From Agrobacterium tumefaciens (lineage in GTDB: Bacteria; Pseudomonadota; Alphaproteobacteria; Rhizobiales; Rhizobiaceae): 64,000 nt of DNA. Shown one piece after another: positions 36,522 to 41,668 of this stretch; positions within the stretch are counted from its first letter, which is position 1; the number at the start of each line of letters is the position of its first letter. Where the stretch lies: NCBI GenBank assembly GCA_025559845.1, contig CP048469.1, positions 1,426,001 through 1,490,000 on the forward strand, read 5' to 3'. The position numbers were made by a program, and so were the translations under genes. The notes under the pieces are model-generated. The model did no database searches and was not told the DNA's origin. It was given only the letters and a program-made list of their open reading frames with translations.

Positions 36522-36624
36522 CGCCATCTCCAATCTCGGTTGAAGAAAACATATTGCATTCACGACGATATTTGCGCTGATATCCGGGCGCTTATTTGCA
36601 ATTTTGTTTCATGAAAGCCGCCCG

Positions 36625-37101
36625 ATGCGCCGTTCACAGCCGCTTGACGATTTCGACCTGAAAATTCTGGCGATCCTGCAGAAAGACAATCTCACGCCGC
36701 AAAGAACGATCGGCGAAGCCGTAAACCTCTCCGCGCCCGCCGTGCAGCGCCGCATCAAGCGCATGACCGACATGGGCGTCATCAAGGCCAACGTCGCCGT
36801 GGTCGACCCCGACGCGCTGGGCCAGCCGATCACCATTTTCGTGGAAGTCGAAGTCATCAGCGAAACCGCCGCCCAGATCGAAGCCGCCAAGCAGCAATTC
36901 GCCAGCACACCCGAAATCCAGCAATGCTACTACGTCACCGGCGAAGCCGACTTCGTCCTCGTCCTCGTGGTCAGCGACATGGCCCGCTACGAAACCCTGA
37001 CCCGCGAACTGTTCTTCGGAAACAACAACGTCAAACGCTTCAAAACCTTCGTGGCAATGGACCGGGTGAAATCCGGGCTTGAGGTGCCGGTGGTGCGGTA
37101 G
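36625..37101 (+). CDS. Lrp/AsnC-family transcriptional regulator
   Basis: A 158-residue Lrp-type regulator with its HTH at about residues 22-41 (TIGEAVNLSAPAVQRRIKRM) and RAM domain from residue 60 (ITIFVEVEVISE; CYYVTGEADFVLVLVV). It is divergent from the dpaL operon and is the likely amino acid-responsive activator or repressor. ATG 36625 is used; the in-frame TTG at 36604 has no better Shine-Dalgarno. The 103-base interval contains two ATTTGC copies but no clear palindrome. It is the last gene before the AT-richer island. Confidence 0.88.
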   Translation: MRRSQPLDDFDLKILAILQKDNLTPQRTIGEAVNLSAPAVQRRIKRMTDMGVIKANVAVVDPDALGQPITIFVEVEVISETAAQIEAAKQQFASTPEIQQCYYVTGEADFVLVLVVSDMARYETLTRELFFGNNNVKRFKTFVAMDRVKSGLEVPVVR

Positions 37102-37107
37102 TCGTGG

Positions 37108-38097
37108 TCAGCATTGATAACAGAAATCGATAACTTCCTTAAAGCCGACCTGCTCATTACGCAGCCTACCCTCCAGTTCATTCAGTTGATTGATGGATAC
37201 AATCTCCTCGGAAGCTTCTATACTGAGTGAGAATGAACCTCCATAGACTTTCCCAATCCTAGTCAGTTCTCGGCTTAACTGCTTAAGGATGGAGTCCCTG
37301 AAAATCACCTGGACACGTCGGAACCTGATAAGACGATGGCAATCGAAGAAATCCGATCGCTTCTCCGAGTCATACTTTCTACCGTTCCAACCCGTCGCAC
37401 GCGTGGCTCGGTAGAAAGCCATGTCATGTGCCTCGCGCCATTGAGTAAAGTTGAAATAAGTGTGAGGGTTCGGATTCTCATGGGTTGCTTGAGGCTGTAA
37501 TGCCAAGGCAAGAGAGCCGTCGTACCTGTCTAGCGTTCCAAAGATCTTGTTCTGAGCTGATATCATCCGGCGGATTGCCGTTGGCCATTTAAAGAGCAAG
37601 ATTCTCCGCCTGTCCAGTAATCGAAGTTCACGTTCCAGCTTGCGCTCTGCTCCATCCTCTTGGCGCTCGACCCTGCTAGGCACGTACTGCACAAAGGATT
37701 TGTAAAGACTGAACACTCGCTCTGACCCAAGAGATATTAGATCAAAAGCGTCATCTGCATCGTGATCCCTAATGAAGTACAACGCCTTCCCGTGAAACAT
37801 CATCAATTGAGCGATGTCTTCAACTAGCTCTACAAGACGTTCAGTTTGTCCTCCGCGATGACGGGTAGCGATGTTGGCCAGCAGACGATCTGCAAGGTCG
37901 TTGTTACTTGTCTCAAGTTTAAGCGGGCTCGCTGAACCATGCATGCGGTGGTGGAATAGATTGACAAAGTCTTGTGTGAACAGATGTCGATTTAGGCCTT
38001 TGTCGCGCCTGCTACGACCAAAGATCAGCTCCTCTAACCAGTTCATCTCCTGATGGTAGAATTGGGTTTGGATCGGCATCGATCTAACAAACTTCAT
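37108..38097 (-). CDS. Unknown protein, island gene B
   Basis: A 329-residue soluble-looking protein with no motif I can assign. The N-terminus has an aromatic/acidic patch (QTQFYHQEMNWLEELIF). The middle has FHGKALYFIRDHDADDAFDL and a basic helix (RKLERELRLLDRRRILLFKW). The C-terminus ends DFCYQC. Its ATG overlaps the TGA of the 852-residue gene by 4 bases (38094-38097), so it is translationally coupled to it. Base composition is clearly AT-richer and codon use different from neighbours, indicating transfer. It could be a partner or effector of the upstream membrane protein. Confidence 0.75.
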   Translation of the reverse strand: MKFVRSMPIQTQFYHQEMNWLEELIFGRSRRDKGLNRHLFTQDFVNLFHHRMHGSASPLKLETSNNDLADRLLANIATRHRGGQTERLVELVEDIAQLMMFHGKALYFIRDHDADDAFDLISLGSERVFSLYKSFVQYVPSRVERQEDGAERKLERELRLLDRRRILLFKWPTAIRRMISAQNKIFGTLDRYDGSLALALQPQATHENPNPHTYFNFTQWREAHDMAFYRATRATGWNGRKYDSEKRSDFFDCHRLIRFRRVQVIFRDSILKQLSRELTRIGKVYGGSFSLSIEASEEIVSINQLNELEGRLRNEQVGFKEVIDFCYQC

Positions 38098-40652
38098 TCT
38101 GCTTCCCCCTCACCATTTGTCTTTCGGCTCAACTTCTTAGCCAAGTGAGTGATTCTCCAGTCGATCTTAAAATCCACTTTTCCTAGGGCAGGAAGTACCT
38201 CTAGCGCAAAAAACAGATCAGATGCCTCTGAGTGGAAGCTCAAGAATTCATTGATGATGTCGCTTGTATGCGCCCTACCACGTTCAAAGCCCATTCTATC
38301 GAAGTAGCCATCTTGTCTAGCCTGACGCTCAAAGGCCATACGCCACTCAATTCTGATAATGTTCCGTGGCGACGCGCCCCAGCTGAAACTATTTGTGTCA
38401 GATAGACGTAGCATTCTCGTTAGGTAGGCTTTCTTGTCCGCCACTCGACTGACGTAGTGCCGAAAGCACGTCCTGCTTATCAATTGAAGATCGGGATTTC
38501 CGTAGTACTCACTATAGATGATGGAGTAACCCACCACAGATGCAAGATCCTGCAATACTGTCGATATTAGGTGGAGACGGAACTCTGTAGAAATAGTTGA
38601 ATCTGGCTGAACAAATTTGTGGTCAGCGGCAAGAATAGCGAGCGGAATGAACACCTGCACTAATCGCTTAAGATTTTCCGCATTATTTTCCTGCAATGCA
38701 AGGATGCATTCTTCAGCTAATGTATAGTAAGCATGTCCGAACTGATCAGGAAGATCGTCGTCGTGCGAATAGCTCATCAGATGCTGCACGATTTCCGGAC
38801 CAGAGAGCAAGGCAGTAACTTCATCTTTGGCGGTGGCGTAAGAGGACGCCATAGCCAACACATCCGGTCGCTCCAGCTTATATTGCTCTTCTGAGTAATG
38901 TTCGTATTCAGTATACCGATTCAGGAGGCCAGATATCTGCTCCAGCCATTGCGGAAACTTCCAATAGGAATGAAGATTTGCAAGAAGCACTTGCGTCGCT
39001 TCTTCTATCAATCCTGACTTGATCAGACCTCTGGCGAAGTCGGGAACTTCCTTTTGATGAAATTCGGAAGCTTCTGGCAGGATCTTCGAGTATGTCCTTA
39101 GAAGTCGTTGGACAACCAACTGCTTAAGGTACTTTGGTTGAGAAAGTCGCTGTCCTTCGACGTCTATTTCGAATTTGATCCTGCGGCTTATGAAGGAGAC
39201 TTCGGCTTGTAAGAACGCCGGTAGTTGCCGCGTCGTATCCGTCGTCCATTCATTTGCTTCGAAAAAATCAACAAGTTCCTGCTCAAAAGTGAGCATACGC
39301 CTCATCGATTCTAGGCATAGAGAGCCACCCAATGCTGCCCAAGTGTCGCACAGATAGATCAGTGATTTCCTATTCGAAAGGCTCGCGGAAGAGGTATCCA
39401 AAAGACTCCGCTCGATTATGTTGCGAAGCTCCTTGATTTCGTTCATTCCAATTTCGAAGTGAAAACCTTTCGCGTAAACCGCGATACGCGAAGACAGCCG
39501 TCCCAGTAACTTCAGAGCTAAATTATACTTCCGGGCCTCAACAGCGAGCTCAACGTGGTTCTTTAGACGGCCTATGATCTCTTTCTCCAACCAATCGAGA
39601 TCAGCTTCTTCCTCCGGTGTGAGCTGACTACTTGTGCAAAGCGCCATAGTAGTGACAGTGTCCCCAGCGTAGAACCATTGCCTATGGCGCTGCCTGCGAG
39701 GGAACCAGTAGCTTTTTGGATCGATCTGCGGCTTCTTCTCCAAGTAGTGAATAAGGAGCTCAGTGTAGTCTTCGGTGAGGTTTGGTAGGGAGGCATCCCA
39801 CCCGCTAACGTCTGACGTGATGCGGTCATCGATGTAAGTCATCTGCTCAAACAAGCGCCTGGCCTGCAGGGAGTGATGATTAGCAAGTGACTTCGAGATC
39901 CTAGGGTTCGACGCGGCGGCTATGTGTTTAGATATACGCGGCAGTATCTCACTTCGAATAAGCGGATTCAAATCAAAGAAATTAAAAAGGCGCTGCCCAA
40001 GAGGGAACAACGTCAACGATGTTGCTAAGGTTAAGATAGTGGCTGCACAGTAAACTAGGTATCCCGGATCGAGACCCAGCATCGGTAACGCAGTAGCTGC
40101 GACGCAAAACGACGCGGAAAAGACTAGGGATTTAGAGTAGTTGCTCCCGACCTGCTCCGATGTCAAAAGCCAGACAATATCCCTTCTAAGTTTCGAGTGA
40201 CCAGAACTGAGTATGATCCCAATGGTAGCGAAATATATTGAGAATATGGACGCGAGAATCTGGGCGTATAGCCTAAGCTGATCCAAATAATAATCTAATT
40301 CAGAAGAAGGTATCGGCTTTAAAATCTCAAGCCCTCTACATAGGACTTCCTCCAAGAGGTAGAGAACAGCCAGAGATACCAGCAACCAAAACAGACCTGA
40401 CGTACTTAGCCAGAAAACTTTTCGCAGTATCAGAAGATCTGACTTGGCTCTTCCAGCAGCATCAATTCGCTTATAGATAGCGGCTTCGAAGCGGAATATC
40501 GAACGGCTGAAATAGTCTCTGGATGACCAGAACCAGTGCCGAGACATCATCCAAATCTTAATTCGTTGTAACAAGCAGGACCTACAAAGTTCTTCTACTG
40601 CATGAGAGACATTAAGAGTACCAGAATCGCTGGCTGACTGGTTGAAGATCAA
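38094..40652 (-). CDS. Unknown large membrane protein, island gene A
   Basis: An 852-residue protein with four predicted transmembrane helices in the N-terminal quarter (about 82-105, 130-150, 177-198, 203-222). A roughly 620-residue, mostly helical cytoplasmic region follows, without a recognisable catalytic motif (no Walker A, nuclease or protease signature). Regions such as NLALKLLGRLSSRIAVYAKG suggest helical-repeat architecture. The TTG at 40652 is the longest start and has no strong Shine-Dalgarno; ATG 40550 is an alternative. It lies first in an ATGA-coupled pair in an AT-richer segment between an Lrp gene and a TetR gene. The architecture is compatible with a defence or sensing system, but that is a hypothesis only. 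Confidence 0.72.
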   Translation of the reverse strand: MIFNQSASDSGTLNVSHAVEELCRSCLLQRIKIWMMSRHWFWSSRDYFSRSIFRFEAAIYKRIDAAGRAKSDLLILRKVFWLSTSGLFWLLVSLAVLYLLEEVLCRGLEILKPIPSSELDYYLDQLRLYAQILASIFSIYFATIGIILSSGHSKLRRDIVWLLTSEQVGSNYSKSLVFSASFCVAATALPMLGLDPGYLVYCAATILTLATSLTLFPLGQRLFNFFDLNPLIRSEILPRISKHIAAASNPRISKSLANHHSLQARRLFEQMTYIDDRITSDVSGWDASLPNLTEDYTELLIHYLEKKPQIDPKSYWFPRRQRHRQWFYAGDTVTTMALCTSSQLTPEEEADLDWLEKEIIGRLKNHVELAVEARKYNLALKLLGRLSSRIAVYAKGFHFEIGMNEIKELRNIIERSLLDTSSASLSNRKSLIYLCDTWAALGGSLCLESMRRMLTFEQELVDFFEANEWTTDTTRQLPAFLQAEVSFISRRIKFEIDVEGQRLSQPKYLKQLVVQRLLRTYSKILPEASEFHQKEVPDFARGLIKSGLIEEATQVLLANLHSYWKFPQWLEQISGLLNRYTEYEHYSEEQYKLERPDVLAMASSYATAKDEVTALLSGPEIVQHLMSYSHDDDLPDQFGHAYYTLAEECILALQENNAENLKRLVQVFIPLAILAADHKFVQPDSTISTEFRLHLISTVLQDLASVVGYSIIYSEYYGNPDLQLISRTCFRHYVSRVADKKAYLTRMLRLSDTNSFSWGASPRNIIRIEWRMAFERQARQDGYFDRMGFERGRAHTSDIINEFLSFHSEASDLFFALEVLPALGKVDFKIDWRITHLAKKLSRKTNGEGEAE

Positions 40653-40933
40653 CTTTGGCGTTCAACCGATAATATGCAATCACTATATGCTGGACAGCTC
40701 CAGAATTACCGTTCAACCCCACAGATGGAACGGAACCTCGTGTTTCGTCTGCTCACTACGAACCAGTCTGGAATGCCTATCGGTCTGTCTCACCGCTAAA
40801 AGCCTCATCTAATCAGCACGCACTCTGGGTATGTTCCTCCAAGCCCAAAGCACCGTTCTCTGTCGCACTCAAACAACTCTCATCACCACAACACTGCGAA
40901 CACATCCCCCCACCCCAAAACCATTATTTTTAT

Positions 40934-40945
40934 ACGAACGGTCGT
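40934..40945. promoter_or_regulatory. TetR operator, copy 1
   Basis: ACGAACGGTCGT is a near-palindrome. It differs at one base from the reverse complement of the second copy at 40964-40975. Centre-to-centre distance is 30 bp, nearly three helical turns. It lies upstream of the TetR-RND operon. Confidence 0.65.
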
Positions 40946-40951
40946 TTTTTA

Positions 40952-40980
40952 TTGCATTTAAATACGATCGTTCGTAAATA
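40952..40980 (+). promoter_or_regulatory. Probable promoter of the TetR-RND operon
   Basis: TTGCAT (40952-40957), a 17-base spacer and TAAATA (40975-40980) resemble -35 and -10 boxes. The second operator copy lies inside the spacer, which would allow direct repression of the operon by its own TetR protein. Confidence 0.45.
40964..40975. promoter_or_regulatory. TetR operator, copy 2
   Basis: ACGATCGTTCGT is the inverted partner of copy 1 at 40934-40945 (reverse complement ACGAACGATCGT, one mismatch). It overlaps the likely -35/-10 spacer of the TetR-RND promoter. Confidence 0.65.
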
Positions 40981-41110
40981 ATCTCGCGACTTGAGCGATT
41001 CCGGGTGATCCGTGTTTTGGTTTGTCTGTGGAAGATGCGAAAGTGCGAACAGATGGAACATGCCTGATGATTTCGTTTAGAACGGGGTGTGTTCTGATTT
41101 GGAGAGTGAC

Positions 41111-41668
41111 GTGGGCCGTATTCGCAAGATCATGAAGGATGACATTCTGGATGCTGCCGAGCGGGTGGTGGTGAAGCTGGGTGCTGCCGGGCTTTCCATC
41201 GATGCCGTGGCGCAGGAGGCTGGTGTCAGCAAGTCCACCGTCGTCTACGACCACAAGTCCAAGAGCGCCCTGCTGGAAGCCTTGATCGACCGCCGGATGC
41301 ACCAGGAACTGGAGCGTCAGGCGGAGCTGGTGGCTGCGGCGAAGGACACCCCTCACCCCGAGCTTTACGGCCGCATTACCGCGGCCGAGCGTGTGGTGGA
41401 TGATGTGGAGCGGGCTGTTGCCATTGCCATCAGCGCCTCGATGTCATCGGAAGAAAAGATCCAGCAGCAGATGCGCGAGTGGACCCAGACCGACCTTGAC
41501 GCAATCAGCAAAGGCCCGAAACCCAAGGCGGCGCTGATGGCTTACCTAGCCTTGTGCGGCTTCTGTGTCACCGAATTTTTTGGCTTCCACCAATGGAGCG
41601 ACGAAGAGCGGACAAGCATTCTTGAAGGTGTGCGAACGATCTACACATCCTTTCCCGACAAGACCTGA
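41111..41668 (+). CDS. TetR-family repressor of the RND operon
   Basis: A 185-residue TetR/AcrR regulator. The N-terminal HTH is at about residues 20-45 (LSIDAVAQEAGVSKSTVVYD), followed by the family YxHxKSKxxLL-like sequence. The GTG at 41111 has GGAGA 6 bases upstream; the GTG at 41087 and ATG at 41132 are alternatives. It lies 60 bases upstream of the RND adaptor gene in the same direction. Near-identical palindromes overlap the promoter before it, so autorepression together with the pump genes is likely. Confidence 0.88.
   Translation: MGRIRKIMKDDILDAAERVVVKLGAAGLSIDAVAQEAGVSKSTVVYDHKSKSALLEALIDRRMHQELERQAELVAAAKDTPHPELYGRITAAERVVDDVERAVAIAISASMSSEEKIQQQMREWTQTDLDAISKGPKPKAALMAYLALCGFCVTEFFGFHQWSDEERTSILEGVRTIYTSFPDKT

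Follow-up and report, generated by a model that had tools for sequence, protein, structure and literature searches.

A co-inherited gene pair for a four-segment membrane protein and a soluble partner in Agrobacterium tumefaciens, predicted from genomic context to be an anti-phage cassette

Introduction

Kiwa, a two-gene system in which a four-segment membrane protein is coupled to a soluble protein of about 300–330 aa, has to our knowledge the best-described mode of action among analogues of the gene pair studied here, designated genes A and B. The pair lies in a 64,000-nucleotide stretch of Agrobacterium tumefaciens DNA (assembly GCA_025559845.1, contig CP048469.1, positions 1,426,001–1,490,000 of the forward strand), called the window below. 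In the published model of Kiwa, KwaA forms tetramers in the inner membrane and KwaB dimers bind injected DNA without cleaving it (PMC12904381). The initial annotation of the window, made from its letters alone, had described A and B as an unrecognised pair on transferred DNA and had put forward a defence role as a hypothesis. We found that A and B form a conserved, co-inherited and patchily distributed unit, and we predict from its genomic context that this unit is an undescribed two-gene anti-phage (or anti-mobile-element) cassette, a reading that we consider fairly likely.

The pair has the two-gene layout of Kiwa, but no sequence or profile match connects the two, and B carries a signature of its own, TxxxGWNxR. 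A is about four times the size of KwaA, and we know of no KwaA with a cytoplasmic domain of about 600 residues such as that of A. Among the titles and opening lines of abstracts listed by word searches of the open-access PMC literature, none described such a pair.

Results

A and B as one inherited unit

Both genes are on the minus strand with A 5′ of B, and the two open reading frames (ORFs), of 852 and 329 residues with a 4-base ATGA overlap, have the coordinates given in the initial annotation. From the overlap we infer translational coupling of A and B. At E ≤ 1e-3, 276 proteins matched B and at least 315 matched A (the query itself counted in each case), so the pairing of the two ORFs is not due to chance.

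Loci of clade I, that of the window pair, were collected by a pattern scan of one genome per species (84,980 species), a B profile and confirmation by tblastn, which gave 18 loci. Seventeen of these contig loci have an intact B, and each has an A homologue immediately 5′ of it; the stop of A and the start of B overlapped by 4–20 nt at 15 of these and were separated by a gap of 1–2 nt at L003 and L006. The eighteenth locus (L019) held a 155-aa B fragment without A (L019:9989-10456), beside an ORF that, by eye, we take to be a transposase. The A frames of L010 and L011 were short, starting no more than 35 and 155 bases away from a contig end, and that of L018 had 423 aa (L018:8733-10004); the shortened or fragmentary copies (A in L018, B in L019) suggest that the pair also decays. 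In L033, too, an A homologue stands directly upstream of B, and the 13 genomes examined whole had one copy of B each. Pairwise distances of A and of B were correlated with r = 0.977 over 19 loci and 0.957 over 16 clade I loci, and none of 5000 permutations reached a correlation as high. At every examined locus with an intact B, A and B homologues occurred together, and the large membrane protein came first and the soluble partner second throughout.

Exchange with a restriction enzyme at one chromosomal site

The same-species comparison comprised one sister genome (G023, locus L024), thus two genomes in all. The flanks of the sister locus matched the window at 98.4% up to position 37095 and at 97.2% from position 40821, with no colinear match between, and G023 had no match to B. 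The segment that the initial annotation took for transferred DNA is therefore missing from the sister as one block. In its place, between the same two genes, stand about 7.8 kb of other DNA holding a 1763-aa Type ISP restriction-modification enzyme and two ORFs of 210 and 262 aa. The domains of the enzyme are Type_ISP_C (E 3.8e-101), an ISP coupler, an Mrr-type nuclease, a helicase and an N6-methylase; its Pfam matches were PF18135 (E 3.8e-101), PF22240 and PF13156, and it had a PADLOC match too. The enzyme stands where A and B stand in the other genome of this species, but the proteins are unrelated. Because the flanks match while the contents differ between the two genomes, the window block and the sister block are alternative cargoes of a single site, and the sister cargo is a defence system.

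The smaller ORFs of the sister block, of 262 aa (L024:2205-2993) and 210 aa (L024:3293-3925), belonged to no confident Pfam or PADLOC family, the latter with GA_3 below the cut-off; they may be accessory defence genes. In six other species of the genus (L025–L030), the 8–9 kb or so upstream of the TetR-like gene that borders the window block on the right held other genes. The Lrp-like gene of the left border was not found in these six stretches by DNA search or protein comparison, so they are uninformative on the insertion.

Composition, distribution and a second clade

The GC content was about 0.55–0.66 outside the segment and 0.45–0.52 within it (47.3% in A, 48.4% in B), and the GC content at third codon positions was 0.52 in A and 0.53 in B against 0.71–0.81 across seven neighbouring genes, in agreement with the AT-richness and deviating codon use remarked on earlier. 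B was present in 1 of 39 genomes of the genus, 3 of 297 of the family and 2 of 398 of the phylum, the own genome being included in each count, and in 2 of 369 genomes of another class. The single genome of the genus is the own one, so the pair is not conserved in all relatives, the same-species sister among them. Foreign-looking composition together with this patchy distribution points to horizontal transfer of the pair, as expected of an anti-phage defence system.

The search of the 369 genomes of another class returned a distant B (clade II) in G1077 at E 3e-21, and this genome was the only one of 24 in its order with a clade II B. At E ≤ 1e-3, 122 proteins matched clade II B. The clade II locus L095 encodes a 309-aa B and a 762-aa A with a 4-base overlap. 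A and B of clade II are distant from those of clade I, with about 20% identity. The B profiles of the two clades aligned with an hhalign probability of 99.7 (E 8.7e-27, 280 columns), and the clade I A profile scored the clade II A at 160 bits in a comparison of two sequences.

In translated searches of 72,556 plasmids, clade I A and clade II B independently matched the same three records, each with A and B adjacent (Burkholderia glumae NZ_CP021077.1; Paenibacillus NZ_CP032413.1, NZ_CP020864.1). Since plasmids of Burkholderia and of Paenibacillus carry adjacent A and B, the pair, judged by sequence, spans phyla. Clade II B was not found in the 50,697 phage records searched, and a pattern scan of IMG/VR contigs did not find it either. 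The pair on the Burkholderia glumae plasmid (L097) has IS66 elements on either side. Genes for a CopG-type regulator and a VapC-type toxin (L097:8515-9092) stand directly upstream of it on this conjugative plasmid.

Defence genes and mobile elements beside the pair

ORFs were chosen by a single rule. The case set comprised up to seven nearest ORFs at each of 18 clade I loci (L002–L018 and L033), 120 ORFs in all, and the control set six ORFs at each of 20 regions in eight of the same genomes, also 120 ORFs. At E ≤ 1e-30, the case ORFs matched 65 PADLOC families, with restriction, Septu and PD-Lambda-4 among the best 25 of the 65. The control ORFs matched four: mad3 (two ORFs), SspA, DndA and RTasPolA. 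These four presumably reflect housekeeping proteins (ABC ATPases, cysteine desulfurase, DNA polymerase I) and were not counted as defence; the mad3 row at the case locus L002 was likewise left out. Rows for PDC-S05, PDC-S68 and typeIV_RecD in the case set were not assigned to loci, and assignment covered the best 25 of the 65 families. PADLOC defence genes lay near the pair at 6 of the 18 clade I loci against 0 of the 20 control regions (Fisher p 0.007), or at 4 of 18 against 0 of 20 without the candidate systems at L004 and L013 (p 0.04). The enrichment near known defence genes that the initial annotation had proposed as a check was thus seen, over imperfectly matched controls.

Directly upstream of the pair were Septu PtuA and PtuB in L006, a type IIG restriction enzyme in L008 and a NERD+UvrD candidate in L004. 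Downstream were a PD-Lambda-4_A gene at about 4.4 kb in L003, type I restriction genes at about 0.9 kb in L016 (opposite strand, past one small ORF) and, starting at about 1.1 kb in L013, candidate PDC-M60A and C genes. Near the clade II pair of L095 were a type I methyltransferase, an HNH protein and a candidate restriction protein.

Mobile-element genes were found beside several pairs: an integrase and a transposition gene with a Mu-type C-terminal domain in L033, integrases in L002 and L010, and a transposase in L005. ORFs that by eye resemble TniB and TniQ also adjoin the pair of L033 (L033:13284-19136), suggesting that it is carried by a Tn7-like or related element. Upstream of the pair in Vreelandella olivaria (L013:3-7045) stand ORFs that by eye resemble type IV secretion genes, and because of this resemblance the L013 copy may sit in a conjugative element.

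Protein A

Neither A nor B matched any family in Pfam, NCBIfam, PHROGs or PADLOC, even at E 10, in line with the absence of a recognised motif in the initial annotation, and the clade II pair had no match at E ≤ 0.01 among the component models of PADLOC-DB 2.0.0. Sequence and profile searches of solved structures with A and B gave weak rows only. Pfam searches with 32 A homologues likewise gave scattered weak rows, the best being ABC2_membrane_3 (two members, E 0.0012) and Imm68 (one member, E 0.0058). No helicase, nuclease or methyltransferase family matched A or B in Pfam.

Some A homologues (P0132, P0217) carry the source name "DUF2254 domain-containing". Profile alignments with DUF2254 (PF10011) fell on membrane segments 2–4 of A, but neither A nor the 32 members matched it at E ≤ 10 and hhalign probabilities were 3 or less. 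The assignment was not accepted: profile scores reached 29.3, with a reversed decoy at 23.6, and the alignment shifted after three clade II sequences were added. In the open-access PMC literature nothing was found that links DUF2254 to phage defence, and the DUF2254 titles found concern other subjects.

Hydropathy confirmed the four N-terminal membrane segments described before, and the positive-inside pattern predicts that the long C-terminal part is in the cytoplasm. Conservation is highest around segment 2: the best-conserved 40-residue block, residues 121–160, had a mean majority frequency of 0.92 among 32 clade I proteins, and the conserved positions there include polar and aromatic ones. 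The motif LGQRxFxxF after segment 4 is kept in both clades. Y129, Y140, G219, Q220 and R221 are kept in three of three clade II proteins, as are several cytoplasmic tryptophans and acidic residues.

The ORF of 852 residues attributed to A is present, but translation probably starts later than the TTG at 40652. Because the clade I homologues start at the equivalent of about residues 27–35 in the alignment, the true start is probably codon 27 (TTG, 40574) or codon 35 (ATG, 40550), which would give a protein of about 818–826 aa. The database entry for one A protein, P0121, has 766 aa, which would place its start inside or beside membrane segment 1; this start is probably wrong.

Protein B

The AlphaFold2 model of B was an alpha-beta fold of middling quality (pLDDT 75.6, pTM 0.73). 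Twenty-one positions were kept in at least 90% of 30 clade I and at least 85% of 29 clade II proteins, chiefly MFxxD, G103, Q137, P140, P172, TxxxGWNxR, F259, Q263 and R267; of the 21, one is acidic and none is a histidine. A metal nuclease had been considered from the clade I motif SDFFDC, whose residues are not conserved in clade II. As no acidic or histidine cluster is kept across both clades, B is unlikely to be a metal nuclease; a sensor, an adaptor or a DNA or protein binder is more likely from these alignments.

A phage portal (PF04860) was also tried. The model of B runs from a helix through a long beta meander to long helices, which is the order of elements in portal cores, and the words around G103 look portal-like. 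The joint-clade B profile aligned with the portal profile in the expected register (53–184 on 68–202) at a score of 16.5, against 16.8 for the reversed decoy. The clade I B profile by itself scored 24.8 against a decoy at 16.0, but over 29 columns and in another register. Tested with 23 PF04860 proteins, the assignment found no support, the score in the expected register being not above that of the reversed decoy, and no portal homology of B was found in PHROGs or, by profile, among solved structures. The element order of the model and the register of the insignificant alignment suggest a portal-like core as a lead. Were it true, SpbK would be a relevant precedent, a TIR system that senses phage portals (PMC12847820).

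Discussion

The A–B pair co-travels, adjoins defence genes in places and is replaced by a restriction enzyme in the sister, and we predict for these reasons that it is probably a bacterial immune system working at the cell membrane. The initial annotation had named three findings that would speak against defence (a well-described family for both proteins, host-like composition with conservation in all relatives, and homologues that never occur together), and none of them arose, so that context now supports the hypothesis.

In the mechanism that we propose, the cassette would have arrived by horizontal transfer at a site where defence cargo is exchanged among strains of the species. A would be held in the inner membrane by its four-helix bundle, with the C-terminal part inside the cell, and B, made together with A through translational coupling, would dock on it. 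The cytoplasmic arm of A, B or both would recognise a cue of infection, and the membrane bundle of A would respond, most likely with an opening or disturbance of the inner membrane that leaves the infected cell unable to support phage any longer. The executor role of the bundle is put forward tentatively: a helix serving only as an anchor would be expected to vary, yet the region of segment 2 is the most conserved, which is why the bundle may be the working part. A bolder version, improbable as a whole, would make the pair an undescribed cross-phylum immune class in which the four-helix bundle of A is the weapon, its gate shut by the cytoplasmic arm, and B is the trigger; B may have a portal-like core, a phage structural module taken over or imitated, with which it would sense or poison the assembly of phage heads.

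Several observations weigh against a defence cassette of this kind. Twelve of the 18 clade I loci had no defence gene traced among the ORFs examined. The controls came from eight genomes on long contigs whereas the case loci are partly in other genomes, an imperfect match. Hand-picked proteins served to locate the defence genes of the six positive case loci, whereas the controls had a bulk scan only. The exchange of cargo at the site is seen in one sister genome. Searches for clade I B in 72,556 plasmid and 50,697 phage records, and a pattern scan of IMG/VR contigs, found nothing. For the executor role of A, conservation is the evidence, and no pore or channel family was matched. The twelve loci would also suit a cargo with no part in defence, namely a transport, envelope-stress or signalling pair hitch-hiking in variable islands, and so would the lack of a recognised effector domain and the solitary position of the window copy between a regulator gene and an efflux operon. 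We give such a cargo a low probability, considering that the alternative in the sister is a restriction enzyme, that zero control ORFs counted as defence and that the distribution is very patchy.

Unlikely to a similar degree is a mode of action like that of Kiwa, with A as a membrane sensor that gathers at injection sites and B as an executor that binds and blocks incoming DNA but does not cut it. The shared layout and the absence from B of a nuclease-like residue cluster common to both clades are consistent with it. However, Pfam and PADLOC linked the window pair to neither KwaA nor KwaB at E ≤ 10, the KwaB domain PF16162 included, the clade II pair was likewise unmatched in PADLOC at E ≤ 0.01, and hhalign of a broad B profile with nine KwaB proteins was not significant (probability 2.7 over 44 columns, reversed decoy 0.1); the large cytoplasmic domain of A counts against it as well. 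Least probable is a self-maintaining toxin–antitoxin or addiction module with A as a toxic membrane protein and B as its antidote, which would explain an overlapping two-gene operon on transferred DNA and plasmids and would suit the toxin and regulator genes directly beside the Burkholderia plasmid pair, but which is at odds with the order of membrane protein and then soluble partner at all examined loci, with an association with restriction and Septu genes that fits defence better, and with the sizes of the two proteins, A being much bigger than toxins generally are and B exceeding the usual length of antitoxins.

A and B are two families with hundreds of members, from Pseudomonadota to Bacillota, which match nothing in four libraries and seem to be an immune system. 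If the prediction of an anti-phage cassette is true, it adds a membrane-acting system that the PADLOC models of 2023 miss, and the alignments made here could yield models for both families. The exchange with the Type ISP enzyme marks a likely site of defence cargo in the species and a place to seek further systems.

Features of the locus

The coordinates of the features are given in Table 1. As in the initial annotation, the segment stands between two border genes, which we take to encode an Lrp-like regulator on the left and, on the right, a TetR-like regulator that precedes putative MFP and RND genes.

Table 1 Features of the A–B locus, in window coordinates.
Feature	Position	Strand	Basis or remarks
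Left border gene	36604..37101	+	Presumed Lrp-like regulator, 165-aa ORF
Variable block	37096..40820		blastn of the window against L024
Gene B	37108..38097	-	329-aa ORF; soluble partner
B signature T232-x3-G236-W-N-x-R240	37378..37404	-	Common to both clades
ATGA overlap, A stop/B start	38094..38097	-	4 bases; ORFs and sequence
Gene A as read	38094..40652	-	852-aa ORF, TTG start; four membrane segments, then large cytoplasmic part
A membrane segment 4, residues 198-216	40005..40061	-	Hydropathy; followed by LGQRxFxxF
A membrane segment 3, residues 176-194	40071..40127	-	Hydropathy
Best-conserved 40-residue block of A, residues 121-160	40173..40292	-	Alignment; spans segment 2
A membrane segment 2, residues 132-150	40203..40259	-	Hydropathy
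A membrane segment 1, residues 82-100	40353..40409	-	Kyte-Doolittle hydropathy
Right border gene	41087..41668	+	Presumed TetR-like regulator of RND operon

Rfam, tandem-repeat and tRNA scans of the region returned nothing, and promoter and terminator scans gave no excess over shuffles. A repeat search found short matches only, with no repeats flanking the variable block. The right flank shared with the sister contains an imperfect palindrome (40933-40976) a short way upstream of the TetR-like gene; it matches the minus strand of the sister copy at 81.8% over 44 nt and is probably the operator of this gene. Elsewhere in the own genome there are two phage portal genes of PF04860 (G000:C1:930656-931639 and G000:C1:1823687-1824673), which suggest two prophages or remnants.

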